64,000 bases of DNA, taken from contig CM026421.1 of assembly GCA_014871385.1 (NCBI GenBank), forward strand, positions 27,990,435 through 28,054,434, in the 5' to 3' direction. A model generated the notes under the pieces. The model worked only from the letters and a program-made list of their open reading frames with translations, was not told the DNA's origin and made no database searches. The stretch is from Ceratodon purpureus. Taxonomy: Eukaryota; Streptophyta; Bryopsida; Pseudoditrichales; Ditrichaceae. Both the position numbers and the translations under genes were made by a program. Positions 16,040 to 55,679 of the stretch are shown piece after piece. Position 1 is the first letter of the stretch. Each line of letters begins with the position of its first letter.

Positions 16040-16158
16040 GGGGAAAGTTTGTATGTGAGCGGAGAGCGTAGAGCGGAGAGCGGAGAGCACAGAATGGAGA
16101 GCACAGATTTGACAATTAGCAAAATTTTGAAAAGCAAAGTAGACCCTATAACCGTGGA
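16040..16158 (+). repeat. E1 left terminal inverted repeat
   Basis: It begins GGGGAAAGTT, has five or six degenerate GAGCGGAGAGC-type units and ends at CCCTATAACCGTGGA. It is paired in inverse orientation with 47,566-47,772. Similarity to the E3 left end (54,539-54,658) continues inward to about 16,530, including GGGCTGATGTCATGATGACG and a block near 16,440-16,510, so left ends are more alike to each other than to right ends. Confidence 0.85.
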
Positions 16159-16291
16159 AAATTACTAAATTAAGGCTTGATTTTGACACTTTTTTTAGAA
16201 AAAGAGTATATTACCGTGGAAATCAGGGTTATCTCTGGTAAGAATTTATTACGTTTGTTCTCAAAGATACAAATTAGGGCTGATGTCATGA

Positions 16292-16299
16292 TGACGTCA
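16292..16299. promoter_or_regulatory. Palindromic TGACGTCA in the E1 left end
   Basis: A perfect cAMP-response/bZIP-type palindrome about 250 bp inside the left end, within a block also present in E3 (54,805-54,812). Such sites bind plant bZIP factors. It lies about 510 bp upstream of the small plus-strand gene. Regulatory use is inferred from conservation of position. Confidence 0.4.
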
Positions 16300-16809
16300 T
16301 GCATACATTTTGTTAGATTTGTCATCGGTTTAGGCAAGATACAATGAACAGGCGTTAAGTTTTAGATCAAACAAATAATTCTTTCATAGGATTATGTAAA
16401 TGCACAAGGGAAAAAACAAATTTCACACAACATAAAGGAGGCAAGGTTTGAAAACTTCCTGGAATATTTCAAAATTCGTGTATAATATCTTAACTGCTGA
16501 AACCAAGATATACCTTGTTAGAGTCCTTGTCTTCATCGAAGATTACTCTCTCTTCCTAGGCAGCGAAGCATCTTCATTTGAGTGATACAAGTAGGAGAAT
16601 TTCATCATGAAACAGCACTTGGTAAGCTGGGTTCCAGAGAAGGAGGTCACTCTTGGTTTCTTGAGCTTGTTTCTAGGTGGCGAATTAGGATAGTGACACA
16701 GTCCTTGGCATTCTGTGCTGTATGCGAAGGTAGCGTAGTAGTTCGGGGATGTCATTCTGCAAGCTTGCGTGTAACGTTTTAAGACTACAACAATTCAGTG
16801 TGTTGCGCG

Positions 16810-17214
16810 ATGCCGAAGGTGTGTAATGCGAGATCGAGGAGGACGAGAGCGGCTGTAGGTTTGCCTCCAAAGGCACCGGCGAGTTATCAGGAGCTGCGGC
16901 CCTGGCTGTTGGAGGTGGAGCGCGCCAGAGAACGAGGCATGGACCTGCCACCGTTTAGGCACATCGGAAGCCTCCATGTTGGTGAAGGTGAATGGCGTTG
17001 GACAGTGCTTTGTACCAATGAGCTTCTCCGTATTTTGGAGTTGTCTCTAATCCCGTATCCCTTGCTATCGAACGTTGATGAGAATCCAGTTGTTCAGCTG
17101 CCCGAAGTGATCATATCGGATGGCGAAACTTGCTGGTTTGATATCGACAAGAGTTGGACTCTCCTTCTACAGCCTCTTCATCGACAAATAGAAGGGCCCT
17201 GGGATCAAAATTAG
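16810..17214 (+). CDS. Small protein of unknown function, first gene of E1
   Basis: 134 codons from ATG 16,810 (MPKVCNARSRRTRAA). I recognise no domain. The N-terminus is basic. The C-terminal half (NELLRILELSLIPYPLLSN, then VIISDGETCWF) resembles the C-terminus of the small gene at 55,162-55,674 (ELDQLRTLLSGNG, then LIPDDGIWVSP), which holds the same position just inside the left end of E3. That positional conservation is the main reason to believe in it. Its last 104 bp overlap, on the opposite strand, the final exon of the minus-strand gene ending at 17,111, so the two genes converge tail to tail. A further 3' intron is possible. Confidence 0.45.
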   Translation: MPKVCNARSRRTRAAVGLPPKAPASYQELRPWLLEVERARERGMDLPPFRHIGSLHVGEGEWRWTVLCTNELLRILELSLIPYPLLSNVDENPVVQLPEVIISDGETCWFDIDKSWTLLLQPLHRQIEGPWDQN

Positions 17215-20200
17215 TGGGCCGACTAGGAACATATCTAAGTGCACCACATTCAAGCGCTTGTGCTAAGCCCTCTGCATAGTCCGGAAGAATAAAAGGCTGA
17301 ACCGGGCTGGAATTAAGACGCCACGATGGAGTGAACACGGCTCTATGCCCACTTGGCGGTGTTGTCACAACTACTCTGCAATAGAAAGCCAGAAGTGGTT
17401 AGATCGAATAGGTAAATTTGCGTACAGAAATAATACTAGATGCATTGCACGAAACATACAAATTCTAGAGTGAGACTTACAATACTTAGTGGGTCTTTGT
17501 TTCTTTGCTGGTGCTTCCTCTGCTGCTGCCGGTCTAGGATGTTTAGGGGGGCCCATGGGAGATTTTGCTGCCATATACGGTTTGAGAAGGGCGTTGAATA
17601 TGGCTTCGTCATCCTCAAAAGCTATAATATGACGACCAATAGCCTGGCAAGCCTTGACAGAGGCCCCTGCAACTCAAAGCAAGGTGAAGACGTGAGAAAC
17701 TGAGGAAGGAATCAGAGAAATAATTCTGTAGAAACATGTAAGAACGGTTACCTGTTCCTGCCTTCCAGTCCAGGACTATGTCGCCGGGCTTCGAGAGCTC
17801 TCCAATTATGCTCTCCATCATGTCACGACCTTTCTCCCTTGGCCCTCTCCATGGAACATTCCCATTCATTTGCTGAGAATCAACGTCGATAAAGTTGAAA
17901 ATCGCATCACTCTCAGTAATGTTGAGGTCGCCATGTATGACATCGGTTTTCCTCGTTTGAAAGGAGAACTTAGATGGCGGCTCACCACCACGAACAAAGA
18001 CTTGGATCCAGAACCGATTAGTCTGCAATCAACCAAATTATGTCAGAATGAATAAACGGAAGGGATAGTACTAAGTAAAGTGAAGGAAAGGAAAGGATGA
18101 AATTACCAGGTTTCCGGGGTTCGTAGGAGAAGTCAGGCCGAGCACATTGAAGCCCCACCAGTCTTTGTAAAGGACGAACTTAGTGGCGCTAGCTTCTTCG
18201 AGAATCTCCGTTGCCAACGCTTGATCATTGTTGTAGATGATGCACAGAGCGCCATCATTTTGCAAGTAAAGACTTGCGAAATAGAAAATGTCGTACACAT
18301 ATTCCTTTTCACGGGAGTTCCAAGGAGGAATCACTGTAGGGGGGTCGGAAACGAGAGGGACAGGAAGATTCTCAGGGATGTCAACGATGATCAAGTCGAC
18401 TCCCAGATGATTCTCATCCTGGCACCGCTCAGGTACTTCGTTCTGGCGGCCACATCCAAACTGCAGAAACAAGAAAATAGGGTTAGACAATATGAAATTA
18501 ATTGAAGTGTATGTAATATTGTATTATGTAAGAAGAGAATCATACCTTGCGCACGAACTCCAGAGTTTTCACCCAATCCGGATGGCCACCCTTGTCTTTG
18601 AGCTCCATGTTACGAACCAGTAACGGGGTCACGGATGAGTTGATGATAGATACACCAGTGGAATGGGAAGTTCCTGCGGAGGAGGTGCTTGCCGGGAGAA
18701 GTCTGGCCTTCCTTTGCTCCAGAAGACCTCTGGTGATAGCGGATGCACTGACCGATGAAGGCGCAGGAGTAGGGGACGGATTTGGAACGACAATAACAGG
18801 AGATGGAACGGCAGCGCCCTTCTCCGGTGCGGAGGACTCTGCACCAGTCTCCTGAGAGCCCTGGGACTTAGCACCCAGCTTTCGCAGTTGCCGCCCCCGC
18901 CCTTTCTTCGGTGGAGGTGCAGATGATTGATCCTGAAGGCCTTCGGCCTCATCAGAACCGTCTCCAGAATCGTCGATGGCTATTGATCCCCCGTCAAGCT
19001 CAGATTTGAGCTCCGCTTCAGACTCAACAACGAAACCTCGAATGCAATCGAGGTACCAACAACCAGCGGCTAGGTGCGGAGAGCTGTACCTCTTCAGCTG
19101 CAGAGGAGTATAGATACACTGATCAGAGCCTTTCTGAATCCACGAGGCGAAGTATGAAGGGAACTTCTCAGGGTCAATTGCACCTTTTGGAAGCAGCTCT
19201 CTCTTGAAGTACCTAATGAAAATCAAGTGCCATATTGATCAGAATCATAGTATTGACAGTAAATAAAAGCGAAAAAGAAAAAAGATAAAAATTCGAAGTG
19301 CATAAAAGTCATACCGGTATGTCACACGCTTAACAACATCTGCTGCTCCCGGATAAGTGGAAAAATCAGACTTCTTATCAAAAGGCTTTTCTGCGCGGGT
19401 ACTTATAAATGCGGGGAAAGCCTTTTCCCAAAGGAGAATACGCCAACTCTCCACATATGCGTCTGGCCGCAACAGTCCCGGGAAGGACTTCCACTTGATG
19501 ACAAGGTTCTCGGTCTTGCAGATGTCATCAAACTCCCGGGTGACAGCATCCTCTATTTGCGATTGAAAGGTAAAGTCATTGAGGTAAATATTGACATGGG
19601 ACAAAGAAGAAGTAGTATCTGTAATTATTACGAAGTTTGAAGGTACTATACCCCAGCCCAGAATGTTGCCTTGTTCAACCAAGGGTCGAAGTCGGCCTCC
19701 TTAAATTCCTGGGGCAAAAATCTGTAAGATTGTCGTGCACTTGGTGAAGAGTTCCACCACCTCAGCCAACGCGCTTTGAACTTTGCATCAACAGCTGCAG
19801 GAACAATCTTCTGAAGCTTCTCCACTTTCATCTCCGGCTTGGAGAATTCAATGTAATGCCGATTGATCTGGGAAGTGAACATTACATGAAAGGGAAGATT
19901 AGTGTTTAAATTACTTATTCAAAAGTAAAGTAGAGATGTGAAGAAACTAACCTCCGCGAGGAAGTCATCACCGTTTTTGGGATTGGCAATGGCGAGGTAC
20001 TTGGTGAAGTCCTTCTTCTTAATGTAGTCGACCATGTTGGTCGAAGCGGCAGACATGGCATCCCATACACCTGCCGCCGTTTGCTCTGTTATGGGTGTTT
20101 TCTCCTTGTAGGCCCGGGCAGCTTCGTCAGAAGCAGCCACGATTTCTCTCTGGAAAATAAAATTATCAACTTCTGAGTGTAAACAGCATGGCAATTCATG

Positions 20201-23200
20201 ACATTTAGAAGCGTGAGGGGGGGGGGGGTGAAAGTGCTTACACGATAAAGAAATGTGATGAAGATTTTGGTTGGCAAAGTAAACCATCCTGGAATTGATG
20301 GTTTGTGATTCAAACATATTTGATACTCCGCTGGTGAGAGCAGATCCTTGAATTCCTCCAATTTCATCACACCAAAAGAGCGAATACAAAAGAGTTTTGC
20401 AGGAAGATTACTCTTCACGTAATCATTCTCTGTAGACCTGCTCGAAGATATGGTAGTTAGTTAAAGCCGTGTAGTGAAAGTTCAAGCAGCTTTCAAGAAG
20501 TGAGGACAAGAAGTAGGGAAAAAATGCTTACCAGTTGATGTCGTGCATGGCATGAAGAAGGTTTCCCACATGACCTCGTGGGTCAAGAACAATGCAATGC
20601 ACGGAGATGTGCCAAGCTGGATCATCATAGTGATGGTTGTTGATATGTCTGTACCATGCGGCAAGGCGATGGTTACCTTCCCAGACATAGAACATCTTCC
20701 CGGAGAACTCCTTCCAGTCCGGATCGGCCAAGAGCTCATCCTCGAAAGCATCGTTGACTTTCTGCCAACAAGGGCTCCAGTCAGCCTTGATCTCAGGCGT
20801 GACTTCCGCTGTCATCTCTCCGTGGTTGTACATGGAAATGTACATGACCCGGTCACCATCTCTATATCCATTGACAAACTCTCGCTCCAAATGTTGAACT
20901 CCCATTTCTCTTACAGGTCGCACTCTTGCCATTGACTGCATCCTGCAGAGGGGTACGAGGATACGGGACTTCGTCTTTGGGAGTATTCGGAGGTCGTTGA
21001 TGACGGTTGTAGAGTCCAATTTGAAATGTTTTCTGTGTTCCAATTCACTGTCCACTGCATTCGTCAATTCAGTAGGACAAGATGGCGCTGGCAACTGATC
21101 CTATGTTTGTGTTTGAGTTACCTGTCAAACGTCATACGTATTTAGAGTTGATTCAAAGATAATGAACGTAAGCAAATCAAAAACAATAATGTAGAATATA
21201 AGAATTACTTCGCAGACTGGTATATCTCAGACTGCAGCAGAAATAAGTAGAGCTTAGGCCACTATGTGCGTCGTGCACGACTATAATACTCCCTAGCCTG
21301 TCTACAGTTCCCGTGACGGCGCCTCTTCCAAAATCGCCTAGTCTGCTGGACAGGGCATGGCAATATCGCCGGGAGGGCGAAGACAACATGGGCTGGCCTC
21401 CTCACTCTAATAGGCGAGGATGGAGAAGGTGGAGACATAGGCGGGGTCCCAAGTCTTGGAGAGGTAGGCATGTAGCCCGGGGATGTAGGCTCATAGATAG
21501 GAGACGTAGGCATGTACGGAGGAGAGTGGACCTCGAGAGGTCCACTACCTAAACCTACAGGGTTGCCCAAATCACATCTACATAAATAAGGCTGATCAAA
21601 AGAATCCGAGAGGTCGGAGACATTGATCACTGAGATCGGCGAACTGATGGACAAGGGTGCATCTGAGAATACCTAGAGAAAAAGAACAAAGACATTGTCA
21701 GATTCCCAACTAAGCTTTCAGAAGAAAATTAGAAAGGACTATGGAGGTTGAATATACTATGCTATACTCAATTGAGAAGACAAATTCCAACAACTTACCT
21801 CAGTTTCTGCTGGAGTTGGGCCATCAAAGTCACTTGCAGTGAATTGCTCTGTGACCTCCTACAATACAAAGGGAAAACAAATAATAAGAAATCAACAGAA
21901 AACACCAAACAAAAAGAAGAAAGCAACAGTTGATATTTAAACATATTCATTCCCCAGATATAATTCTTCTTGTTTTTAAAATAAGCCCCCTTCTCCCCCT
22001 CCTCCTCCCCCACATCCTCCCCCTCCTTGTCGGGGGAGTGTCGGCTCCGAATGCGCCTTGGCGAGCAGCAGTGCCCCCGGGTCAAGTGCCGCAAGGTGGC
22101 TCCTCCAAGCAGCAGCTGCAGGCTCTCGGGCTGCGGCCATGGCCTCCGCAAAGCCCCACATACCATCATGGCCCCCATCCCCCCATTCCTCCCCCACCTC
22201 AAGGGGGAGTGTCGGCTCCAAATGCGCCTTGGCGAGCAGCAGTGCCCCCGGGTCAAGTGCCGCAAGGTGGCTCCTCCAAGCAGCAGCTGCAGGCTCTCGG
22301 GCTGCGGCCATGGCCTCCGCAAAGCCCCACATACCATCACGGCCCCCATCCCCCCATTCCTCCCCCACCTCAAGGGGGAGTGTCGGCTCCGAATGCGCCT
22401 TGGCGAGCAGCAGTGCCCCCGGGTCAAGTGCCGCAAGGTGGCTCCTCCAAGCAGCAGCTGCAGGCTCTCGGGCTGCGGCCATGGCCTCCGCAAAGCCCCA
22501 CATACCATCATGGCCCCCATCCCCCCATTCCTCCCCCACCTCAAGGGGGAGTGTTGGCTCCGAATGCGCCTTGGCGAGCAGCAGTGCCCTCGGGTCAAGT
22601 GCCGCAAGGTGGCTCCTCCAAGCAGCAGCTGCAGGCTCTCGGGCTGCGGCCATGGCCTCCGCAAAGCCCCTCATACCATCATGGCCCCCATCCCCCCATT
22701 CCTCCCCCACCTCAAGGGGGAGTGTCAGCTCCGAATGCGCCTTGGCGAGCAGCAGTGCCCCCGGGTCAAGTGCCGCAAGGTGGCTCCTCCAAGCAGCAGG
22801 TGCAGGCTCTCGGGCTGCGGCCATGGCCTCCGCAAAGCCCCTCATACCATCATGGCCCCCATCCCCCACATCCTCCCCCACCTCGCCAACACTCTCCTCC
22901 GCGGCCAATGCGACTGATTCACTCTTGGCTTGAACACTCTCTCTCCAATCACCCACACCCATGATCTCTACAAATCCAAAAACCCAAAATCGGAAGAAGC
23001 ACAGAACCCCAACACAAAATCTCACCTCCTCGGTAGTAGGGCCGCGGTCCGATCCTCCTTGCTCATTCGCCATCTCCTCCTCCATGCGCTCCTCTCCTTG
23101 CTCCCCCATCTCCTTCTCGGTCTCACCCTCCTCTGTTGCCGCGGGTGTTTGTTGCGATGGGCCTTTCAAAAGGGCCTTCCCTCTCCCACCTCGACCCTTA

Positions 23201-24140
23201 CCCCTTCCTCGACCCCTCACCTCGGTCCTCCGACCTCTCCCTCGGGCCGACCCCTCATCCATGTCCTCTTCTCCTGGGCCTACCGCACTATCGAGCGAAT
23301 CACTATCCTCCCCACTAGTTACAGTAGGACTTCCAGGGTGCCCTCGCCCCGCTCGTGTAGCAGCAACTAGTTCCCCACCTTCGCCCGCGTCCATAATTTG
23401 GCGTCTCGCTCTCCTAGCGACTTTTCTCAACGTCTCATGATCTGACTCCTCGCCCGTACCCACTTCTAGCGTCTTCTCCTCTTCAACGTCTTGCTCAATC
23501 CTAAACCAGTCGCCAATCTGCGCAAATGTTTAGGACTAAGACGAAATTTACTACTCCACTTTTATTTTGAACAACCGTTCAGATTCATGCAGCTTCACTA
23601 TTCTAAACAGTAAAACAATGAACCCGCAGCAAAGACATTACTTCAAACCAACTATAATTTACATTTAACATTTTTTAATTGATGGATTCTGAAACTTACC
23701 ACATCTATATTAGCATGGTCGCCCGACTGAGAATCCGTCCCTCTTGTTGAACACTCCTTGAATCCGAAAGAAGGTTGCGGTGTCTCCAAAGTCGGACTAC
23801 AATTCAACCCTAGCTCTTCCGTCATCTCCAGATGTTTCTCTCCGCTACTTATTACTTCATGCTCCTCATGCTCAACTGCGGTATCCTCTAAAACCTCATC
23901 TTCCGCCTCTACTATGGACTCTAGAATGAGTTTACGGATGCTACAAAATTTAATTGCCACAGGCAGCCCAGCTCCTCGAACCTTCAGAGGTGCACTCAAG
24001 AGGTTGCCTTTCGACTTTGACTTCCTACGTAATTCTCTCCTCTTCCTCGATCTCCTGTTAGTAAAATCTGTACCACCTGGTTTTCTTCTAGGCCTAGGAG
24101 TGACATAAGTGGAGGGAGCTGACCCTCCACTCTCCTTCAT
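17111..24140 (-). CDS. Multi-domain protein: 57-aa repeats, CTD-like heptads, ParB-like region, amino-methyltransferase-like fold
   Basis: Fifteen exons proposed on the minus strand: 24140-23700, 23517-23026, 22965-22198, 21858-21799, 21672-21406, 21094-20532, 20437-20242, 20149-19952, 19867-19652, 19550-19315, 19212-18546, 18460-18107, 18022-17752, 17666-17481, 17373-17111. All junctions are GT-AG and the phases fit, giving about 1,725 residues. The start is basic, then acidic and Gly/Arg-rich. A 57-residue repeat follows (about 345-567), then heptads YMPTSPI/YEPTSPG/YMPTSPR (about 640-660). A ParB/sulfiredoxin-like stretch with FYVWEGNHRLAAW sits near 800-865. The C-terminus (about 1369-1640) has the motif order of beta-class N6/N4 methyltransferases: VDLIIVDIPEN, VSDPPT, a GDIVLDWKAGTG motif I, then AIGRHIIAFEDDEAIF. 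The canonical DPPY is replaced, so activity is uncertain. Least certain are the exon 3 donor (each repeat has one) and the 21406/21094 junction; without that junction two genes would be read, the first ending at 21,262. Confidence 0.7.
22032..22886 (-). repeat. Five tandem copies of a 171-bp unit
   Basis: Copies begin at 22,032, 22,203, 22,374, 22,545 and 22,716, exactly 171 bp apart, and differ by only a few substitutions each; the last is divergent at its end. 171 is divisible by three, so every copy adds 57 residues (GFAEAMAAAREP, WRSHLAALDPGALLLAKAHS) in the minus-strand frame. Several other frames, including three on the plus strand, also stay open through the array. Each inter-unit junction carries GAG|GTGGGG, a usable phase-0 splice donor. 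Confidence 0.9.
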
Positions 24141-24742: not shown

Positions 24743-24990
24743 ATGGGGATGGTCTGTCTGTACGCCCAAGGCATGGGCATCCCTCTAAGGTTTCGCGTAG
24801 ATGACGATGGTCTAGGTACAGTTTCCTCTCTTCGCCTGAGTCTCAGATTCCATTTCCGTGAGGATTCCATCAGTATAGAGGAGGAGATCTTTGATGACGA
24901 AACTGCGGAGGTTACCCACACCCTTGGGCAACCTTTAGTGAGAGATCAGAACAAAATGTTGCAGTGGAGACTACTCCCTGGATCCTATAG
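24743..24990 (+). pseudogene. MULE transposase of E1, 5' part, cut by retrotransposon insertion
   Basis: From ATG 24,743 the frame matches the N-terminus of the E2 transposase: GIPLRF with LSLRFHFREDSISIEEEIFDD, against GIPFVM with LSLRFGFRAGTIYVEEEIFND. The frame breaks at PGSY, where the target duplication TATAG and the solo LTR begin. It resumes at 42,551 with RVYGLTDSL, matching KVYGLSHAQ of E2. Sequence and frame join exactly once the insertion is subtracted. Confidence 0.8.
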
Positions 24991-25829
24991 TGTCGTGTCC
25001 CGACTTTCCGTGATTTCTAGTTTTACTTTGTTTGTGGATTAAAAGTAGTAAAAATAATAAAAGTTAGGGTTTAGTTAGAAGCTATTGTAGACATTAGGTT
25101 TGATTGTTAGAAATAAAAATAGTAAAAAAATAAAAAGTGTTAAAGTAGTTAAAAAGTGGAAATTAGAGTAGGTTTAAATCCGCTGCGGAAAGGTGGAAAC
25201 CCGGGTAGATATCCGGGTTAGGGGAATCCGGGTCTGCACCCTGGACCTCAACCCGCAGAGGGGACCACGCCTCCAATCCACGATTAGGGTTTTGGCTAAA
25301 CCACATAGGAGTCAAGCGAGGGTTAGGGTTCCTCCTTTTGTTTTGGCAGTAAGGTAGTAGTGGTCGGAAGAGAGAGAGGGACGTCGCTGACCGCCGCCGT
25401 AGGGAAGGACGCTTGATCCGCAACGCCGCAGGGAGCGTAATCCTGGAGGCGGAGAACTGGGCAGCAACCCCGCGGAGTATAGGCAATAGTGGCGCACAGT
25501 CGGTAGAGAGTTTGGCTTATAGCTTAGGGTATTAGTTGTCGGCGGAAGGGATACGTTGTGGGGCGCGGCTTGAAGGGCAACTTGAAGCTCGGAGCAAAGG
25601 GAGTATCCGACCGCAGCTGGAAACAGTGGACGCCATCAGCAGTAGGGCCGCGGCGCATGAGCAGGAGGAGCAGCGTAAAACCAGGGCAAAGAGCAACTGC
25701 GGGGCGCGATAACAACTGCGACGGCTTCCCGAGCGGAGCGACGAGGGAGGAGAAGCTGGCGACGCGGTGAGCGCAGATAGCAGGCCGCGATTAGATTTTG
25801 GGCCGGAGGCGGAGAATCGACCAAGGGCG

Positions 25830-27695: not shown

Positions 27696-28151
27696 GATTC
27701 TATTTAGGTTTAGGTGCAAGTTGTTGAGGCAGGTAGTTAAGATTAGTTAGACTTTATTGTTTTTGTCTTTTTCCTAGTTTCGGGCTGTGGGATCCGAGAA
27801 ACTCAGAATAAACCGGAAGAGCCCCAGCCGGCGTAAGTATTCCATTTATTTTTCATTTTTTTTGGCTAATTAGGTAAAAACTGGCCAGACACTAGCAGCA
27901 TTAGTAGTTAACGCAAATCGGATACTCCGGAAACGTTAAAACAGTTAACGTAGGAAGTGTTCCCGGAACCTGGATTCCGGAAACTCGGAAGACAAGACAC
28001 GGAACGGGTGGACGATCCGAGTACTGACCGTTACTGTAACCGCGTCAAGGATCCGAAGCGACGCGGAAGTCATCATGACTCGGATAGGCGTTTACCCCGG
28101 TACGTTGGCGGCTGCAATTACGGGCCGCCATAGCGCTTATTATGCCTGGGG

Positions 28152-28158
28152 TATATAA
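28152..28158 (+). promoter_or_regulatory. LTR TATA box
   Basis: TATATAAG in the context CTGGGGTATATAAGCGAGG, about 155 bp upstream of the LTR ORF start. If transcription begins some 30 bp downstream, the ORF is the first cistron of the genomic RNA and gag starts about 3.4 kb from the cap. The same box occurs at 37,863 in the 3' LTR, where it would drive the ORF and flanking DNA. Confidence 0.55.
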
Positions 28159-28310
28159 GCGAGGGTGTTAGGGTTTGGAGTTCCTTTTTGCGAACTGGGA
28201 GTAGAGAGTGAAAGAGCGGTGAGGTGTCTTTGTCTTTTCCGATTCACCGGCAGTTGGATTGCCGGGTTTCTTGCTGTCGGATCGTAGAGGGAGAGAAGTG
28301 AGGAGTAGAG

Positions 28311-31449: not shown

Positions 31450-31472
31450 TGGCGCCGCTGCCGGGGATTCGA
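31450..31472 (+). other. Primer-binding site, Asp-tRNA type
   Basis: TGGCGCCGCTGCCGGGGATT begins 10 bp after the 5' LTR. It matches the complement of the 3' end of plant tRNA-Asp (TGGCGCCGTTGCCGGGGATC) apart from C for T at position 9 and a small difference at the end. This tRNA is used by Athila-type gypsy elements. Confidence 0.8.
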
Positions 31473-31637
31473 TAAGCTGTGAACCAGGTGGATACTCGGG
31501 AGATACGTGAGCGCAGATTTGAAGAAAAGTGGAGTCAGACCGTGAAGGCTTCGTTTAGGTGGATATGCGGTAGGCGGAAGTCTTACGTGCAGATCCTGCC
31601 TTCCGAGGAATCGGAAGAAGAATTCCCAATCTCTTCC

Positions 31638-37460: not shown

Positions 37461-37483
37461 TGTTCGCGGGGACTCTCACATTT

Positions 37484-37496
37484 GAAAATGGGGTAA
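37484..37496 (+). other. Polypurine tract
   Basis: GAAAATGGGGTAA lies directly before the TG of the 3' LTR, where plus-strand DNA synthesis is primed. Confidence 0.75.
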
Positions 37497-40400
37497 TGTG
37501 GGATCCGAGAAACTCAGAATAAACCGGAAGAGCCCCAGCCGGCGTAAGTATTCCATTTATTTTTCATTTTTTTTGGCTAATTAGGTAAAAACTGGCCCGA
37601 CACTAGCAGCATTAGTAGTTAACGCAAATCGGATACTCCGGAAACGTTAAAACAGTTAACGTAGGAAGTGTTCCCGGAACCTGGATTCCGGAAACTCGGA
37701 AGACAAGACACGGAACGGGTGGACGATCCGAGTACTGACCGTTACTGTAACCGCGTCAAGGATCCGAAGCGACGCGGAAGTCATCATGACTCGGATAGGC
37801 GTTTACCCCGGTACGTTGGCGGCTGCAATTACGGGCCGCCACAGCGCTTATTATGCCTGGGGTATATAAGCGAGGGTGTTAGGGTTTGGAGTTCCTTTTT
37901 GCGAACTGGGAGTAGAGAGTGAAAGAGCGGTGAGGTGTCTTTGTCTTTTCCGATTCACCGGCAGTTGGATTGCCGGGTTTCTTGCTGTCGGATCGTAGAG
38001 GGAGAGAAGTGAGGAGTAGAGATGGCACGCGTGCAGTGTTGCGTCCTTAGCCCCGGAACTCCAGTGAAGGAATCGGATATGGAGGAACTGATCACCGACC
38101 TCACTCGGATGAGGTGTGAGGGATTGTTGGCACGACCGTGGTTACTGAAGAGTGAGGTGATGGTGAGGGAGGTCCTGGAAGGTCCGGACAACCGGTGGGA
38201 TAATACGATCCGAGGCAAGCCCACGCTGTGGAATGCGGAACAATGGGCGGAAGCTTACGGTTTCGAGCAGAAGGGACTCCTTTGGGCGACTCGGACGGAT
38301 CAGTACGTGCAGGATAGGTTCCACGGGAAGATCCATAGGAACAATGGATACGAGATAGACGCCTGCAAGGATAGGAGGCAGAGGCAGGTCTTAGCTTTCC
38401 TCGTTCCGATCCTGTATCCGCAGAAACCGGCACAAGTTACCATTACGGTCGGGAATACCATCCTCGGAGCGTATACAGGAGAACGTCCGGTGAATTGGGC
38501 TGCACTCATGGCGGAAGTGGTGCAGAAGATGGTTCCGACGATCGGAAAGAAGCCGACCCCACTCTCCCCTTACCTCTTTCACCTTTACCATGCGTATGAC
38601 TTGCTGACCGATAAGGAGGACGAGACGTATACGCACGCGAAGAACTGCCTCAACTTCTCGGAGATTCCGCCCGGAATGGAACCCGATCCGCGAGGTGAGC
38701 CCTCTGATACAACGGACTCGGAAGATGAGGACGATACGAGGGAAGTTCCGAACCCTGGCGCTGCTAGGGCTCAGTCCAGGTCGAGATCGGAGCAGGCTCC
38801 GTCACGACACGCGGAGCCGTCTACGGCCCGGGGAGATCCGGAACGGAGAGAGGTCAGTTCCGATCGGGGATTTCCGGTGGACCTGTTTCGGGGGATTCGG
38901 GAGGAGACTCACCGGGCTCAAGCTTCTTATGATCGGATCGAAACCCTGTTCCGGAGGGTCTGTACAGCTCTGGGAGGGTGCTTACCGGAAGAGGTGATCC
39001 GAGAAGTGGAGTTGTTGAAGGATGCCCCAACTCTCCGGAGTGAGAAGAAGCGGCTGGAGCTTCAGTTGCAGGAGCTGACGAAGGAGCTGGCGGCAAAGAG
39101 TGACGAGATCCGTAAGTTCCACGCCGAGCAGGAGGAGACTTTGGGGGAGCTTCGGAAGTTGGTGGGAAGTTCGGGAGCGGTAATCAACAAGGCCCGGCTG
39201 TTTGATGAGAACGTAGTGCAGCCGGCCGATTTCGAGGACAAGCAGAAGATCATCAAGATCCTCTCCAAATGCGAGCACTCGATGAACATGATCCTGAAGA
39301 AGGTCCGGCAGCTGCTCAATCCGAGCACCGGAAGTCCCAGTCTCGTAGTCGCTGGCCGGGGTCTTCCGCTCCCCGGATCGCCCTCTCGTGCCGTGGTAGG
39401 AGAATCTCGCGGAGTTGGGTTCCGAACCCCGATAGGGAGTAACCTCCAAGCAGCAGAACAGATGACGGTCGAAGAGGCCGCCATGACAAATCGGACGATT
39501 GCGGAGGCGATCCGGGAAGTCCAAGCACAGGCGGCGTCACCCGGAACCAGTACGGTCCAGCAGAGCTGCGCGATCCCCAGAGGACAGGTGGAGGTGACCG
39601 GAACGACAGTCACCGAGAGGCGGATCGAGGAGAGGACGGTTTCGGAACAGGTGACTCGGACCGTGCCACCGGATGTTCTTCCACGACTCGGAGAGGAAGT
39701 GATCATTGCGAATTACCGAGGGGAGGTAGCGGGACCGGAATGGAGACGACCTATTTCACCACCCGGACGGACCCGAGTAACTCAGGAGGGGGGATTGACC
39801 CCTTCACCCACAGCCAAGACCGGAACGGTGACGCCTACTCCCACCGGAACGCCAGCAGCGGGTTCCCCTCCGAACACTGTCGGTGAGTTCCGGAGGTTGC
39901 GGAAAAGGAAGGAGCCGATTACGATTTCCGAGTCCGACTCAGAGACGCATGGGAGCTCTCCGGTCAGGACCACCGGAACTGAAACTCAGACTCCGACGTC
40001 CGGAACCCCTCCCGCACATATGATCCCGAAATCGCCCAATTCTCCCAAGCCCCGGATCGTTACCCGGTTGTCCTTAGAGGCTCAGGAGAGGGAGTCAAAG
40101 GCGGAACGGAGTGCTAGGCGCAAGGCGGCACGAGCAGCAGAGGCGGGCGGATCGGAGCCACGGGTGACCAGGTCGAAGGATCGCGAGCAGGAGAGCCACA
40201 AGAAGACAAAGAAGTGATAGATTCCTCTCACTGCCACTTGTCGTAACTTTCCGAATTTATAGGAGTAGATTCCGGATCGGGAGATCCGTTCTAGTCGTAA
40301 AGTAGAATTCTAGGTAGATAGTTAGGGATTAGGGTTTTGATTGAACTGCCGGCGCCGCCGCTTTGTGAAAGCCCCTGCTTACTTAAACCGGGCAGGCGAT

Positions 40401-41150
40401 GCGATCCGGGTCTTCGTTTTGCATGTTTTCCCCCTATATTCCTTATCAGTAAAGTATTTGTGTTTTGTAAGTACTGTGCGTGATTTCCCGCTAAGTGTGA
40501 ATGATCCGGGAAGGATATGGGAGTTCCGCTGTAGCTCGGATAGGAAGGTGATGGGAGTTGCGACGAGACCCGAACCGGAAAGGAAATGGGATTGAGCGGA
40601 AAGATTTAGCGGATTGTCGTAGGAGTGAAGCCTCACTGTTCCGTCCCCAAATCAACCTCATACGGAATAGCCGTCGCTAGGGTCGAAGCGGATCAAGAAC
40701 TACTTGGTCGGGCTCCCTGAACTTCTGAAGAGGTTCCGTGCACAGTGAGAGGGGGAGTCGGAACGTGGTACGGGTCGCCTAGGGATAATCGGATCCTGGT
40801 TCTCCCAGATTCGGATTGGTTTGTCGTTGTAGTCCCACGGATCGGAGAGGATCGTTTGTGTGACCTGCTGGCCAGAGTACTCTAGGACAGTTGTGAGACG
40901 GTAACTGATCCGAGACGTTGGGGTTTGTGGACGAAACACCTAATGAGAGAAGAATAGAGAAGGAGATAGTTCGGGAGTTACGTTCCGAAGACACTATCCG
41001 AGCAGTGGCAAGGCTCGGAACGATTAGCAGTAACTACTTGGTGAAACACTATTGAATCCCTGGACGATACTCGGAACCTAGTGACAGTACGGAAGTTTAC
41101 GCTCAATTAGAGCACTATCCGGATGTTAGTTGCGTTTCCGTGTTCCGACA
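37497..41150 (+). repeat. 3' LTR, 3,654 bp
   Basis: Same length and ends as the 5' LTR, followed directly by the target duplication CGGGC. Confidence 0.97.
38022..40217 (+). CDS. LTR-encoded 731-aa coiled-coil protein (3' copy)
   Basis: Same protein as at 28,311-30,506 with one replacement seen, Glu12 to Gly (SPETP to SPGTP). Both copies are fully open. This copy lies downstream of gag-pol and could be expressed from the 3' LTR promoter. Confidence 0.85.
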   Translation: MARVQCCVLSPGTPVKESDMEELITDLTRMRCEGLLARPWLLKSEVMVREVLEGPDNRWDNTIRGKPTLWNAEQWAEAYGFEQKGLLWATRTDQYVQDRFHGKIHRNNGYEIDACKDRRQRQVLAFLVPILYPQKPAQVTITVGNTILGAYTGERPVNWAALMAEVVQKMVPTIGKKPTPLSPYLFHLYHAYDLLTDKEDETYTHAKNCLNFSEIPPGMEPDPRGEPSDTTDSEDEDDTREVPNPGAARAQSRSRSEQAPSRHAEPSTARGDPERREVSSDRGFPVDLFRGIREETHRAQASYDRIETLFRRVCTALGGCLPEEVIREVELLKDAPTLRSEKKRLELQLQELTKELAAKSDEIRKFHAEQEETLGELRKLVGSSGAVINKARLFDENVVQPADFEDKQKIIKILSKCEHSMNMILKKVRQLLNPSTGSPSLVVAGRGLPLPGSPSRAVVGESRGVGFRTPIGSNLQAAEQMTVEEAAMTNRTIAEAIREVQAQAASPGTSTVQQSCAIPRGQVEVTGTTVTERRIEERTVSEQVTRTVPPDVLPRLGEEVIIANYRGEVAGPEWRRPISPPGRTRVTQEGGLTPSPTAKTGTVTPTPTGTPAAGSPPNTVGEFRRLRKRKEPITISESDSETHGSSPVRTTGTETQTPTSGTPPAHMIPKSPNSPKPRIVTRLSLEAQERESKAERSARRKAARAAEAGGSEPRVTRSKDREQESHKKTKK

Positions 41151-42550
41151 CGGGCCTTGGCTCTTCGGGTAGCGGAGAGTCAGTCTGCTGCCACGTGGCC
41201 CGTGATTCTGATCACGCGGTCCGTGGCTCAGTAGTTTAAAAGGGAGAACCCTTGGGGTTTTCTCTCACCATTTTGCGATGTTTGTGTTCTTTTGTTCAAT
41301 TCAGGCTTTATGTTTTACTCCACATTTGTCTTGAGTTTTTTTCTGGAGTGCATGAGCAAAGTGAGTGGTCCCTCCTTCCCATTCTTGCTGTTTCCGAGTT
41401 TGCACCGGTCCCCATAAACGCTGTGTAGGTTAGTTAGGCTAGTATTCCGTGTTAGGTCAGTTCGGGCTGTGAGCCTCTATTAAGCAAGTTTTAAACATCC
41501 CTAATTCAAGCCGTTGCTCTCATGCAAGGGGGTACTTGGTGAGCTAGCAGCCGCCCCTGTTTAGGATTGGTGTACTTGCTTAATCGGTTCGGTATCACCC
41601 CCTGTGCGGAAAGTGCTAGACGGAGGAACACTAAGGGTGGAAAGGAGGAGAGGGCGGAAAGTGGAAGTGGCAGATACCAGACTTGAGTGCGGAGGGTGTA
41701 CTCCGACTCGAGGATACTTGGGGATTCGAAGGGGGTACTTCGGTACAAGGATTTGAGCTTCATCATTTCCACAATCCACCCCAACAACGGAAGCGTGGAA
41801 ATGTGGCCCTACTCTGTGTGACCTGCGGAACACAGCATTGTACCCGTTGTGAGGGTAGTGGCCCATTTCCGCATTTCCACCCCTTCTGGGGGAGTGGTAC
41901 GAGACTTGAGTGGGACAGTTTTCCGTGAGAAGGCTGCCCCCATCGAAACACCAGGCGGAGGGAGTATTAGAGTAGGAGTGCGTGAAGTAGGGAGAAAACC
42001 CTGACAAATCAGTGGGCGAAATCCCCGGAAATAACTACAAAGCCTCTTTGAGCATTCTAGCTTAAACCGCTAGAATTATTCCGAGTACGGAAGTCGGTTG
42101 GTGACGGAAAGGTGGAGCAGCAGTGAAGATTCCACTAGTAATCCCAGAGATGCTGTCATAGAGTAGCTAACTACGATGGGTCTTCTGGGATGTCTCTGTG
42201 TACATAGTGATGGGCTCTAGGATCGGGACTCTGGGCCTATATTGTGCTAAGATAAGGTATGGTTCTTGTAGTCTTTGGGGGTAGATAGTGTTCCACTTTC
42301 CACCTTTGGATAGTGGAATTTTCCGTGATAGGTAGTATCCGGGATTTCTCTATCCCTTAGATTTTGTGGCCTTGGGTGTTTCTTGGGTTTGTGTTTGGGA
42401 TTTTTATGTGTTTCTTTTAGATTATCCCTTCTCTCAGTTGTGTTTACAACCGCAGGTTCTTCGTGGGAACGAACTTCGCGCGGTTTTAGCGTGTTACGCG
42501 TTATTTAGGTTATTTAACTCAATACGTTACCACCGTGCTACGACATATAG

Positions 42551-45500
42551 AGTCTATGGTCTTACTGATTCTCTGATGGCTGCATCCACTGAGATCCTCA
42601 CCCCTCGTCGCTCTTCTACATGCACAATTCAGACTCCCTTACCTCGTGATGTCAAAGTCAAAGTCGAGCCTGGTACTGAAACTTCAGACGTAGAGAAACC
42701 TCCCCCTCCGACAGTCATTTCTCTCTCCTCTGATGACAAAGTCAGTCCCGTCAAGTTGGTGCCCAAGGTCCACGCTGATACTCCTCCTTCCAATGTCGCT
42801 CTTCCATTGTCCCAGGTCACAGTTAGCATTGTCCCCCTCCTTCAACAGCTTGCAAAGGCGCGTGGGTCATAAAACATTTTGAAGAAGATAGACTATTCCA
42901 CTATTAGACACGAGAGAGTAGAGTACTTGCCTGCGAAGTTTGATGGTCCGGTTCTTTTTGAGTTGCCTCCAGCTGCTGCAGGATCCTCTAAGCTCGCCGC
43001 CAAGTCAATGCAAGGAATGGACAAACGATACGACGGACACTTGTGGACCAAGACCATCACAACAAACATCAAAAACGACTTCGGACTCTCTTTTCGAAGT
43101 TCCACCTGCGTCGGATGGATGCGCTACACCAACGAGGAGTGTGACTTCTTGAAGCGTGTTCCCAAGATCTTCGAGGTTAACGAGACTGAGTTCGAAGGCT
43201 GTACTCTGCAAGCTTTCCTCATTGATCAGCCTCCTCCATCTGACTCCACGCTTGTGTGCAAGGTATGTAAAGAACCTCCATCATGTGTAGCTACATGTGA
43301 GGCTAAGATTTATTACGTTGTGGGCAAACCGAATCAGACTAGAGCTTGTATTCATATAGGATCACATGATCATCTAGTGAAAGTAGGAGACTACAGAGAC
43401 TCTAAAGCAGAGATTAGTAGCTTAATAGAAGAGCAGGTAGAGATGAACAACAAAGCAACAAAGAGCGCCGTTGTCCTGGAGGCGAGCAAACTCCTCATCG
43501 GGAGCTACCTTCTACAGCCCGACGATGCACCACCGAGGAAGCTGACGATGGAGGAGCTGGTTCCTGTTTTGGATCGTTGCAAAGACATGGCGTCGCCCAA
43601 CATCCGCAACAAAGTCGCCACCTTCAAGAAATTCAAAAGGTACGGAATCATGGACGGTATCACCAAGCTCCGTGGTAACAGTCTCTGGGCGTATGTCCAG
43701 GAGAATAGGTTTCCTGGTCAAGGATCTATGCGTGACAAAGTCTTCCTGTTTAAGATGTCGGAGGTCGGGCCGGGAAGTGGTGTCGACTTGGTCAGCCGAA
43801 TGCAAGCTGGTGGCGACTTGGAGAACGCATGGATCATGTTCGACCATGTCAAACGCGTCAAAGACTGGTCGACGATGGCCTGCCATGTGTACGACGCCAC
43901 CTACTGCCGCGTGATGACAATCGCCACTTGCGACATGCAGTCCGAGGACACGGACGCCCAGCTCGTCTTCTGGAAAAACCTGAACCTGGTCATGGAGATC
44001 AATGGCGTTGCAGCGCCGAACTTCAAGGGGTTCATGGCGGATAACGCACAGGCGAATTGGAATGCAGTGCGAATCCTTTACGGCAATGGCAACAAAGAAG
44101 ACCCAATGGAGGACCGGGAGAGGTCGTGCTTGTTCCACTGGACTCAGAACATGGTGGCGTATACGTAGAAGCACTTCCCCGAAGAACTCTGGGAACAGCA
44201 CAAGAAGATGTGCACTCAGTACAAGAATGCGACCAGCATGGCAGAGGCGGAAACTCTGTACCACGCGTTGCGAGCATGGTGGGCATCCACCGGGGTCGTT
44301 GGCGAAAGCGGGCTCATCAAACTCGATCAGTGGCTGTCATTCTGGCACCACCGCTTCCGCCAGTGGGGGGGATTCATGACCGAGGTATGATCTCTGCACT
44401 CTGTTCTGATATTTTTGATACTGGTTTCCTAGCCCTAACCTACAAAACTCTAATCCGTGAATCTAACGGCACCTACTGTCAAATCTGCAGAAATTCTCGA
44501 AAGAAGAACTCACAGAGATGCCGACCTGTAACCTCGCCGAAATAGTTCACAACAAGTGGCTCCAAGCTTCAGGAAACAACGGGAACGACCTCTACGTTGC
44601 TACCGTGGACGATTTCGTTCGGGCATTTCTACAGGTTGTCAACTACTACTAGTTCCTCAAAGGTGACGTCGGCGGAACAGGACCATCCAAGAAGGAACTC
44701 AGGCTTCGGATGGCTGAACGCAACGCGAAGAAATGGGGAAATCCTACACTGCTCGACAAGCCCATGCTCGATATGCCAGGCGCGGATGAGTTCTGCACCC
44801 GTCAGCCTATCATGCATGGAGCGGAAGTCTTCAGTTCACAGAAGCGAAAAGCCGACGTCCCCATCGGAGCTGACGAGGAGTCTTATCGCCCGGATAAGAC
44901 AAACTTCTCACGCCCAAGAGGCCCAAGACGTGCCGTCAGGGCTCGCCCTATGCAGATGCCCGTCATTGTGGAAGACGACTCCGAACACGACACCGAGGTA
45001 CAATGTACCCAACCTCCTGCCGAGGAAGTTGATTCCCCTGTACCTTCACCTGTGAACAAGGGCGGCATTCGCCATGTCAACGCGGTTGAAGAAACCAAGG
45101 TGGACGTGAAGGAGTGGCACATTTCGAGACTTCACAAACTTTCTGCGAAGTGTTGCTGGGCCCAAAGAGCTGAAACGAAGAAGAAGTGCACTGAGAGAAT
45201 CGTCAGGGGGCCCCATTGCACAGCTGCACCTACCTACACTGGGCTCTGGACTAACTATCGCAGGAAGCTAGTGGAGAAGACTGAGTTCTTCTTCTGCTCC
45301 GACGATATTGAGCGTTGCGTGAAAGGCTCTAAGCGCAAGTGGGTAGCACACTACTCAAAGGACCAGGAATTCTCCTCCATTCCAGAGGTCTGGCCAGTGA
45401 AACTAGGTACTAACCTAAAACTCACGGAGATTCTTGCCTTCGAAGCAGCGGGCTTTCAACTTCCGCTGAAGAAACCGGTCTCCCCAAGACGCCTCTTCTC

Positions 45501-45984
45501 CTCTGCCCCGCCCCCTGCAAATCTCAGCTCGGTGCTAGTCGCTGCAGACGCTGACCGCTACCCAGGCAAGAGAGACGGCAAGATGGTGAAGCGCACTGCC
45601 ACTCGTCTCAATCCGGCGCAGCGACTCTCCATGGGCTCCTCCGAGTCACTCAAAGCGCGCCTCCGTTCCGTCACCATGATACCTGAGCCGGGCCACGGTT
45701 GCATCATTGGGCTGGATTCGGGCGTCGCTCCACACATCACTCGGTACCAGATTACCATCAGTTCTTACCCTGGTTGCACTTGTCCCGCATTCAAGAAGAC
45801 GATGACTACGTTCCGAGGCAGGACTCAGTTCACGTATTGTAAGCACCTTTACTACATACTCTTGAAGGTCTGCAACCGTGATCCCGAAGCGGAGCTTTTC
45901 ATCCATGCGCCTACCTTCAGCTTTAACGAGGTCAAGCTACTCCTAGAGAGTGGAATCTTGCGTCACCCCTTGGCGAAGAAGTAG
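42551..45984 (+). pseudogene. MULE transposase of E1, 3' part
   Basis: It resumes at RVYGLTDSL after the solo LTR. In order come a Ser/Pro linker; a WRKY-GCM1-like zinc region (STCVGWMRY, CKVCKEPPSCVATCEAKIYYV, HIGSHDHLV); the DDE region (WIMFDHVKRVKDWSTMACHVYD, KGFMADNAQANWNAVR, RSCLFHW); and a SWIM zinc finger (CTCPAFKK, then FTYCKHLYYIL). An intron at 44,385-44,490 (GAG|gtatga to ctgcag|AAA) is supported by the E2 copy. In-frame stops are TAA 42,870, TAG 44,166 and TAG 44,650, the last where E2 has Ser. With the insertion, it cannot make transposase. WRKY-GCM1 and SWIM fingers are known from MULE transposases. Confidence 0.85.
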
Positions 45985-46235
45985 GTAGCCCTCCTACTTT
46001 AAAACTGCCATTTCCACAATGGCCATTGATAACGTACTGAATGATTTTAGTAATATACCATGTACTAAGTCAGCAATACAGAAGCTGTATTGACTTTTTC
46101 ATTATTAAGGCTTTGTCGTTCACATTGATTGCATTCTATTTCAATACATTCTATCTTGAACAAGTGCACTATATACCTCGTATCCCCTGGCATGTACCCT
46201 TTATTACAGCAAACATATACTTGTTATTAGATGTC

Positions 46236-46688
46236 CTAATCTTCGAACCTAACACGTTTAGGGTTGCCCACTACACTATCAGCAGGGCTGCGAACCGCTG
46301 ACTGTACTACATGACAAACTACATTCGCGTTCACTTTCGGTCCCACACTTGCCAAGTGTCCTTGGTATGAACGTTTCAGCAATGGCCCACCTCCCCGCCT
46401 CCGATTAACTGATTCCCTGGAATAGGTTCCCCTTGGGATCATTCCAACCTTGGAGTATGCATGAGGTTGTAAAGGCACATCTGCGTCCTCCTCCAGCACT
46501 CTGATATCATCCGAATTTTCTGAACGTGGAGGGTCAGCTCTTACATCCGGTTGCACGTCAACATCCGTTGTCAAAGGACGCCCTTGGGTGTTGGCCATCA
46601 CCTCTTCTTCGTCCTCGACCTCAACATATGGTTGAAATGGACAAACATCGTCAGCAAGTGAAACAACAATATCTCTGACGTCTTCCAT
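46236..46688 (-). CDS. 150-aa protein of unknown function near the E1 right end
   Basis: Opens at ATG 46,688 (MEDVRDIVVSLADDV). It is acidic in the first half (VEVEDEEEV, SENSDDIRVLEEDADV) and basic in the second (SVNRRRGGGPLLKRSY), ending VGNPKRVRFED. No domain is recognised. It converges with the transposase and lies about 900 bp inside the right terminal repeat. I see no copy in the short interval between the E2 transposase and its end. Confidence 0.4.
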   Translation of the reverse strand: MEDVRDIVVSLADDVCPFQPYVEVEDEEEVMANTQGRPLTTDVDVQPDVRADPPRSENSDDIRVLEEDADVPLQPHAYSKVGMIPRGTYSRESVNRRRGGGPLLKRSYQGHLASVGPKVNANVVCHVVQSAVRSPADSVVGNPKRVRFED

Positions 46689-46889
46689 AACAGCTGTCCC
46701 GCAGTACGGAAAAGAGCTTCACAAAACACCAACAGAAAAGAGGAAGAGACATTCCATAATCCTAACTTAAATATCCGTGAAGGAGATGCTTGGCGCCCTT
46801 GAATCTCGGCATTTCATTTATTTGAAAGTTGTCATCGTCCTCAACTGAATGGAAAAGGATGAGGGTTGAGCAGAAGTCATTTAGCATTT

Positions 46890-47245
46890 AAAATTTAAAA
46901 GTAATAAAATAAAAGAAAAAAAAAATTAATAAAAGCAAAAAGAAAAAAAAAAAAAAACCTTTATAAAAAATGAAATTAAGAAAATAAAAGTAAAAAAAAC
47001 AAAAATAAATATTAAGGTTGAAAATAATATGAAGGCGACTAAGAAAATGAAAGAGAAAATAAAATGAAAGACAAAATAAAATGAAAGAGAAAATAAAATG
47101 AAAGAGAAAATAAAATGAAAGACAAAATAAAATGAATGAGAAAATAGTATGAATGAGAAAATAAAATGAAAGAGAGAATAAAATGAAAGAGAAAATAAAA
47201 TGAAAGAGAAAATAAAATGAAAGAGAAAATAAAATGAAAGAGAAT
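46890..47245. repeat. A-rich tract with 17-bp tandem repeats
   Basis: Poly-A-rich from about 46,890. From about 47,047 to 47,243 the unit ATGAAAGAGAAAATAAA is repeated roughly a dozen times with small changes. It is a low-complexity minisatellite just inside the E1 right end. Confidence 0.8.
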
Positions 47246-47565
47246 TAAAGGAAAGGAAAGATAGATAGAGTAATGGAAGTTAATATGAAAAATAAAAGAA
47301 ATAAACCATGTAGACCATGGCGGATGATTTCTAACAATGTTAAGAAAATGTTACGATATTAAATGTTACTTTATCCCTCTTAAAAGGTTCAATACCAATA
47401 CATTTTAAGCGGTAATTTGCATATAAATTTGAGGAGATAAGGGGAATTAATGTATGCCTGAACTAGTTAGAAGGAGCTGGAGCATAGTAATTGGTGCACG
47501 TTAAAAAATTAATCACCAAGAAAAGAGAAAACAAACTACAAATTCAATGAAAATACTGTAATTAG

Positions 47566-47772
47566 TCCACGGTTATAGGGTCAATAAAATTACTAAAATT
47601 AGTATTTTTCCAAAAATATACTGGGAATATTCGAATCTACTAATTTTATTATTTATTTTTGGTAAAAAATTTGCTTTTTTAGGTTCTGTCCCCCACTCTG
47701 TGCTCTCCGCTCTCCAAATCTGCGCTCACCGCTCTCCGCTCTGCGCTCTCCGCTCACGTACAAGCTACGTCC
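47566..47772 (-). repeat. E1 right terminal inverted repeat
   Basis: On the minus strand it starts GGACGTAGCTTGTACGTGAG, continues with GAGCGGAGAGC units and ends at CCCTATAACCGTGGA. It is longer than the left end because of about 90 bp of AT-rich insertion. The TSD follows directly. Confidence 0.85.
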
Positions 47773-55674: not shown

Positions 55675-55679
55675 GATAG

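Follow-up and report, generated by a model that had tools for sequence, protein, structure and literature searches.

Near-identical transposases paired with deeply divergent methyltransferase-like genes in a putative Mutator-like element family of the moss Ceratodon purpureus

Few transposons come with epigenetic tools of their own, and the way in which these tools diversify is an open question. In the VANDAL elements of Arabidopsis, the short motifs bound by the accessory protein VANC lie in tandem repeats, including those of the VANC21 intron; VANC lowers the methylation of its own kind of element, whilst the transposase VANA is much more conserved than VANC (PMC5735166; like the other articles cited here, available to us in part). 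Retrotransposons with DNA methyltransferases are described from Symbiodinium and Klebsormidium and, with a Dam-like enzyme, among DIRS elements, and marine viruses contain DNA transposons with a cytosine methyltransferase (PMC5890265); fungal DNA transposons with TET/JBP dioxygenases and MuDR/Harbinger elements with a SET domain are also reported (PMC12730594). Here we analyse a stretch of 64,000 nucleotides from the moss Ceratodon purpureus (contig CM026421.1, positions 27,990,435 to 28,054,434; 'the window'), in which positions 16040 to 47772 are occupied by an element, E1, with a transposase gene, a small third open reading frame (ORF) and, divergent from the transposase, a methyltransferase-like 'second gene'. 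What is new is that near-identical transposases are paired with deeply divergent second genes, each with an internal tandem array.

The likeness to VANDAL and VANC is that of a Mutator-type element whose accessory gene is more variable than its transposase and holds motif-bearing tandem repeats inside an intron (PMC5735166, PMC13317346). What sets the moss system apart from VANC is the methyltransferase fold, together with inverted ends and an exchange that involves the gene as a whole: according to the available parts of the same articles, VANDAL elements are Mutator-like elements (MULEs) without terminal inverted repeats, and VANC carries DUF1985 and DUF287, neither of which was matched in the scanned parts of the moss second gene. 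With the elements of PMC5890265 it shares a DNA methyltransferase domain encoded by a mobile element, but those described there are retrotransposons with cytosine-C5 or Dam-like enzymes, whereas the moss element is of the cut-and-paste type and has a beta-class fold with an altered motif IV. Like the TET/JBP and SET-domain transposons it is a DNA transposon with an epigenetic-type gene of its own; the enzyme is a different one, and cassette exchange and internal arrays are not mentioned in the available part of PMC12730594. A literature search, outside which lay Repbase reports and most subscription papers, found, among the titles listed, none describing the same combination.

E1 is one copy of a high-copy family of putative MULEs with three genes, 15-18 kb long in the four copies measured. 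Its features are as follows.

16031..16039, no strand: target-site duplication TTTGAGGAT, left copy
16040..16111, + strand: left terminal inverted repeat, with heptamers GAGCGGA
17111..24140, - strand: methyltransferase-like second gene, 14 exons in the spliced model, 1471 amino acids, no stop
17486..18460, - strand: exons 11-13 of the second gene, methyltransferase fold, with motif IV 'VDLIIVDIPEN' and motif I 'VLDWKAGTGASVKA'
20532..21100, - strand: exon 5 of the second gene, a conserved domain of 190 amino acids with 'YVWEGNHRLAAW'
22032..22884, - strand: tandem array in the second gene, 171 bp x 5.0, between exons 2 and 3
24743..24990, + strand: transposase exon A, 5' part, up to the nested insertion
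42546..44384, + strand: transposase exon A, 3' part, with stops at 42870 and 44166
44491..45984, + strand: transposase exon B, with a stop at 44650 and the natural stop at 45982
46239..46703, - strand: third conserved ORF, about 155 amino acids
47719..47772, - strand: right terminal inverted repeat
47773..47781, no strand: target-site duplication TTTGAGGAT, right copy

The second gene belongs to the element as a regular component. The genome (362,488,568 bases in 151 contigs) was searched with parts of the element, and the copies scored were the best hits of lists of about 1900-2400 candidates, so the pair counts below are those of a selected sample. Exon 5 of the E1-type gene gave 1896 candidates, the best 150 of them 83-100% identical and 131 of these without a stop; for exon 5 of copy C (the C type), 138 of the best 150 of 1905 had no stop, and no place was common to both lists. 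Of 2420 matches to the transposase exon the best 97 were 97-100% identical, 96 of them without a stop in the searched exon. A scored exon 5 lay upstream, divergent and within 12 kb in 47 of these 97 scored transposases (23 E1-type, 24 C-type); other arrangements of the two were seen in none of the 97, and control positions shifted by 1 Mb and 0.5 Mb gave 0 and 0 pairs. With the E1-type list alone, a scored transposase stood no more than 40 kb from 28 of the 150 exon-5 copies, and in 26 of the 28 it was upstream and divergent. The left 201 bp of E1 had 1201 candidates, the best 40 all at 97-100% identity over 200-201 bp, and 24 of these 40 ends had an exon 5 inside, within 12 kb. Amongst transposases unpaired at the time of reading, the first exon of the second gene was directly upstream and divergent in 5 of 5 and then in 11 of 12; three of the first five later fell in the C-type list.

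Matching 10-bp duplications bound six further elements, E2 and E3 at the right of the window (below) and four copies elsewhere:

C1:26456650 (start): copy A, 15,186 bp, 10-bp duplication CAGAGTAAAC
C7:3994259-4011190: copy C, 16,932 bp, 10-bp duplication GAGGTGTCGG
C3:10282969-10300355: copy Dd, 17,387 bp, 10-bp duplication ACATAGTCAA
C1:20835355-20853017: copy E, 17,663 bp, 10-bp duplication CTGTGTGCCC

Copy A was read end to end, C, Dd and E except for about 1.7 kb in the transposase gene, and a further copy, B, without its left end. The arrangement of the original prediction, a second gene standing beside the transposase between target-site duplications, recurs in the genome. Transposases with the same ends but never accompanied by the gene, which would have refuted it, are not what the genome shows: the gene is present in the 47 pairs and, by first exon, in 16 of the 17 unpaired cases. 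The prediction had called the gene cargo; it does lie inside the element, but the term understates a conserved, selected and exchangeable module. The contig C6 (110.5 of 362 Mb) holds 62 of the 150 E1-type exon-5 copies and 15 of the 97 transposase copies; older cassettes may accumulate there.

The second gene, including a non-canonical motif IV described below, is held by purifying selection. Amongst the six copies E1, A, B, C, Dd and E, the ratio of nonsynonymous to synonymous divergence (dN/dS, or omega), counted by the Nei-Gojobori method over 530-973 codons, was 0.11-0.25 in 15 of 15 pairs, the values being rough for dS above 1; the 540-973 codons mapped in each copy contain no stop. Counted block by block along the exons, E1 against A gave 0.19, 0.34 and 0.35. 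MULEs are known to capture host genes, and the second gene might likewise be a host gene carried as passive cargo, as in a Pack-MULE. However, it is intron-rich, under purifying selection in diverged lineages and regularly adjoins the transposase, which makes this origin very improbable; copy A, with an intact transposase as well as a second gene, is moreover unlike a Pack-MULE, which is a captured piece of a host gene without a transposase.

The neighbouring genes do not share one history. Between A and C, Dd, E and B, respectively, dS is 1.13, 1.09, 1.12 and 1.96 for the second gene against 0.159, 0.125, 0.091 and 0.037 for the transposase (189 codons), and between E1 and the same four copies it is 1.09-1.90 against 0.17-0.25 (108 codons). 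Copies C and Dd, which have the same type of gene, show no such gap (0.142 against 0.148), and the third ORF follows the transposase (0.12-0.15 for A against B, C, Dd and E). Since a seven- to fifty-fold synonymous difference between neighbours is unexpected under a single history, the gene or its surroundings must have been exchanged by recombination or conversion: the second gene has moved as a cassette between elements of one chassis, comprising the ends, the transposase and the third ORF. The break points adjoin the second gene. A is 83-99% identical to C and E over the first 1.4 kb and 67-88% thereafter; on the other side, its identity to B, C and E is 39-51% immediately upstream of the first exon of the gene, and 93-100% from roughly the transposase start codon onwards. 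The cassette is itself mosaic, since in the first exons four sampled copies (L066, L071, L072 and L073) match B as well as E at 91-96%, yet dS between B and E is 0.95 in the remainder of the gene. A coupling of the terminal heptamers (GAGCGGA in E1, GAGCGGT in E2, GAGCGGC in E3) to the gene type was considered, and is ruled out within the chassis by the ends of C, Dd and E, which are 93.5-95.5% identical to those of E1.

These contrasts bear on whether the product of the second gene might help transposition by binding to the ends or the arrays, in the manner of a second transposition protein, and have no part in anti-silencing. Its regular pairing with the transposase and the divergent arrangement would suit such a role, and the end heptamers and arrays offer possible sites. 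It would be odd, though, for a partner of the transposase to change so deeply whilst the ends and the transposase stay near-constant, and we regard this explanation as doubtful.

On sequence comparison, the second gene is predicted to encode a beta-class N6/N4 methyltransferase fold, which is a statement about the fold and not about an active N-methylase. Exons 11-13 match the Pfam family N6_N4_Mtase at 3.5e-9 (37.4 bits, above the cut-off of 26.7), the PDB entry for DpnA at 1.4e-4 and the NCBIfam model for CcrM at 1.3e-4, the last far under that model's cut-off. Motif IV precedes motif I, which is the order of the beta class, and motif I is kept as D-x-x-A-[GSA]-T-G across the sequences compared. 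The catalytic motif of beta-class enzymes, (D/N/S)PP(Y/F/W), is absent: HMMER aligns the DPPYN of DpnA, in a sub-threshold segment, to DIPEN of the second gene, and D[IFV]P[ED] replaces DPPY in 8 of 8 sequences compared (DIPEN in E1, A, C, Dd and E, DFPDG in E3, DVPED in E2, and DVPEG in P0001, the one relative returned by a search with a 963-aa core of the gene). As the same altered motif IV occurs in lineages whose synonymous sites are near-saturated, it is conserved rather than decayed. The alteration argues against ordinary N6/N4 methylation. The original prediction had suggested that the gene, with its DNA-methyltransferase-like fold, could mark or protect element DNA; on this view the protein would be an active methyltransferase acting on N6 of adenine or N4 of cytosine in the DNA of the element. 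The motif order, the retained motif I, the Pfam score above cut-off and the similarity to DpnA and CcrM all speak for it, but the loss of DPPY extends to P0001 and to the divergent E2 and E3, and we consider a working enzyme of this kind unlikely.

The divergent gene of 15 exons that had been predicted is real and lies inside the element, but the spliced model has 14 exons. About 578 bp of copy A is absent from the E1 gene at 17157-17160, and the C-terminus of the E1 protein is altered as a result. Exon 4 (21406-21672) encodes 'YMPTSPIYEPTSPGYMPTSP', reminiscent of the heptad repeats in the tail of RNA polymerase II. It also contains a perfect palindrome, AGTGGACCTCTCGAGGTCCACT; of the 30 best E1-type loci, 23 have it exactly and 6 with a single change.

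All six copies have a long tandem array in the 5' part of the second gene. It lies between exons 2 and 3 in E1 and A, and between exon 1 and the region of exons 3-4 in B, C, Dd and E, where exon 2 is unmapped. The units beside the 171 bp x 5.0 of E1 are 171 bp x 8.5 in A, 211 x 11.8 in C, 348 x 8.1 in Dd, 201 x 15.4 in E and 224 x 9.1 in B. Amongst the 30 best E1-type loci, 27 have an array of 170-172 bp units in the 1.5 kb upstream of exon 5, and in 23 the core CATTCGGAG occurs within the initial 640 nt. Palindromes with a stem of 8 or more and a loop of 4 or less number 8 in A, 11 in C, 17 in Dd, 13 in E, 9 in B and 4 in E3, against a mean of 0-0.3 and at most 2 in 20 two-base-block shuffles. 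One type, TACTG[TC]CG..CG[AG]CAGTA, is common to C, Dd, E and E3, whose units have little else in common than low-complexity runs, except between C and Dd; C and E have a 24-bp core at 96%, their other matches being of low complexity. TACTGYCGTNNACGRCAGTA occurs at 2622 places genome-wide, against 0 for its reversed control; the matches listed, all on C1, comprise one lone site and four multi-site clusters, each within 8 kb of a C-type exon 5. The array is thus at a fixed internal place, and its units turn over fast, often keeping a short core that in several lineages is a palindrome.

Arrays and palindromes could be incidental, intron satellites or sources of hairpins unrelated to the protein. 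Linkage would account for the way they vary with the gene type, palindromes are lacking in the E1 array, and its 171-bp unit is close to the nucleosome repeat. However, the position of the array in the gene is the same in all six copies, its core persists whilst the unit changes, as between C and E, and the same palindrome type occurs in E3 and in C-type genes. An incidental origin therefore seems rather improbable to us, though a serious contender.

By analogy with VANDAL, the second-gene protein is most likely a VANC-like factor for self-recognition or anti-silencing, a reading to which, together with the family and the exchange described above, we give about an even chance. As an accessory factor that binds DNA sequence-specifically, it would recognise sites within the element that encodes it, for which the internal array is the best candidate, and this recognition would either counter host silencing or limit the action of the protein to its own kind, as VANC does for VANDAL. 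The methyltransferase fold may still bind S-adenosylmethionine, motif I being kept; with D-x-P-E/D in place of DPPY, it would act by binding or by an unusual methylation and not by ordinary N-methylation of adenine or cytosine. Exchange of the cassette would then let one chassis change its recognition specificity. In a fuller form of this proposal, which we offer tentatively and as possible rather than probable, the chassis carries an exchangeable self-recognition cassette, a methyltransferase-derived protein with an array of its cognate sites in its own gene, that is swapped whole by recombination, so that one transposase lineage could carry many distinct specificities for anti-silencing or self-marking. 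The swapping of specificity subunits in bacterial restriction-modification systems is comparable.

Several points weigh against a conserved, exchangeable recognition module. The transposase distances stand on the few codons given above, the pairs come from best hits and the omega values are rough at high dS. Stops occur in 19 of the 150 E1-type and 12 of the 150 C-type exon-5 copies, and at least two in-frame stops in the E2 copy of the second gene; in one of 12 sampled transposases (L074) the first exon is absent within 2.5 kb. The terminal repeats do not follow the gene type, the core CATTCGGAG is missing from the searched stretch in 7 of 30 E1-type loci, and the E1 array has 0 palindromes. 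Because the array lies inside the gene, linkage alone suffices for its co-variation with the gene type. Finally, exon 5 has no meaningful support in Pfam or PDB, the intact transposase of copy A matched no Pfam family, and PDB gave no meaningful match for the transposase.

The many copies in one genome constitute a natural experiment, in which near-same transposases and ends are combined with deeply different second genes and arrays, and whether transposons win by changing recognition specificity becomes directly testable. If the altered motif IV still supports chemistry, the methylation would be of an unusual type.

The boundaries of E1 are supported by the other copies. The two copies of TTTGAGGAT adjoin both ends of the inverted repeat, but the 9-mer alone is little proof, since 1.17 matches are expected by chance per window and a third match lies at 17611 on the opposite strand. 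The same ends in A, C, Dd and E are each directly bordered by a different 10-bp duplication, however, so the TTTGAGGAT match belongs to the ends of E1, and the predicted 9-bp duplication flanking 16040-47772 is confirmed as part of the element. The predicted inverted ends are also present, as arms of 48 nt (16046-16093 and 47719-47766) that are 90% complementary. The third ORF is open in E1, A, B, C, Dd and E (omega 0.2-0.9) and has a counterpart in E3 at 42% identity.

The duplications of 9 bp in E1 and 10 bp in A, C, Dd, E, E2 and E3 fall within the 8-11 bp of MULEs (PMC6446971). Terminal inverted repeats, a further mark of such elements, are present as the arms given above. Three features, the length of the duplications, the inverted ends and the motifs, are the basis of the putative membership. 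The transposase itself is recognised by no Pfam model, and amongst 35 of its relatives no Pfam family was found in more than one, Transposase_mut appearing once at 0.18. The transposase has a cysteine/histidine finger, a D..D..E with C-x-x-H, and a C-x-C..C-x-H finger, which we take to be WRKY-GCM1, DDE and SWIM motifs, the last two presumably the signature of a MULE transposase. In copy A it is intact, an open frame of 1190 amino acids in two exons with D-65-D-130-E, CLFHW and C-x-C..C-x-H. The motifs predicted for E1 are thus present, but the E1 gene is broken by the premature stops at 42870, 44166 and 44650 and by an insertion. The Lanisha superfamily has reportedly been described from a moss. 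It is placed near EnSpm, a group with mostly 2-5 bp duplications according to the available part of PMC12730594, and does not fit.

The 31.7 kb span that had earned E1 the name of a giant is due to this insertion of 17,555 bp, and the core is 14,173 bp. At the same position the transposase gene of copy A is uninterrupted.

24991..42545, + strand: nested insertion in the transposase gene, with TG..CA ends and the 5-bp duplication TATAG, 17,555 bp
27786..41150, + strand: inner long terminal repeat (LTR) retrotransposon, LTRs of 3.66 kb, 99.9% identical

The insertion reads as a solo LTR (24991-27785 and 41156-42545) that holds a second LTR element, whose ORF at 34476-37457 is reverse-transcriptase-like and, by eye, of Gypsy type. 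Each LTR of the inner retrotransposon (27786-31441 and 37497-41152) has an ORF of 734 amino acids, and the surrounding solo LTR has one of 660 amino acids (25713-27692) that looks related by eye; ORFs within long LTRs are thus seen in two families.

The original prediction had also likened the second gene to ParB. This label, given to exon 5 for 'YVW[ED]GNHR..AW' as read by eye and for weak PHROG matches, is not supported by Pfam, PDB or profile-profile comparison. For an alignment of 55 exon-5 members, ParB_N is missing from the Pfam families listed (25 of 27), the best of any family being DUF1015 at 0.0042 in one member; a ParB-like PHROG was matched weakly by 10 of the 55 (best E 0.056), and none of ten members scanned singly matched a ParB family. 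PDB gave only a ribosomal protein (0.012) and PYL5 (1.3), and hhalign of the exon-5 profile against 8 phage ParB_N sequences gave a probability of 1.4. The Vibrio phage 1.213.O (L057) has a fusion of ParB_N with N6_N4_Mtase, the same Pfam methyltransferase family, also on the C-terminal side; the phage protein has ParB_N, whereas moss exon 5 shows no profile match. The protein collection contains 103 relatives of exon 5, of which two are labelled Calypogeia fissa, a liverwort. A viral origin of the domain was considered and set aside, two IMG/VR scans being without any relative; phage matches to exon 5 of E2 were weak, with E 0.1 and above.

Two further copies lie to the right of E1 in the window.

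48971..54538, no strand: E2, left part, with the duplication GGCGACAAAG at 48961-48970; extends past the window
49567-53244, - strand: E2 transposase, with stops inside
about 53870-54092, + strand: start of the divergent gene of E2, by eye resemblance
54529-54538: E3 duplication CTGTGCGCAA
54539..64000, + strand: E3, nested in E2, with its left end at 54539-54675; runs off the window
60908..63315, - strand: part of the methyltransferase-like gene of E3, motif IV 'VDLVIADFPDG'
63503..64000, - strand: E3 tandem array, 220 bp, with the palindrome (T)GTACTGCCGTTAACGGCAGTAC(A), five pattern sites in the window

The 10-bp duplications GGCGACAAAG and CTGTGCGCAA are matched in the sequence to the right of the window; the halves of E3 were joined via matching duplications and orientation, one of the three stretches to the right being all N. 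The E2 transposase is 49% identical to that of E1 across 355 residues. The second gene of E2 is mostly outside the window, and the second-gene pieces of E2 and E3 are 24-69% identical to the E1 protein. Between the left end of E3 and its second gene, extra plus-strand ORFs at 55087-58000, one with a CxxC-rich finger, are possibly further captured genes, and a purine-rich tandem tract at 58747-59269 has 18.6 copies of a 28-bp unit. In the host flank at the other side of the window, a long minus-strand ORF at 1457-2452 resembles what we take to be an F-box/kelch gene.

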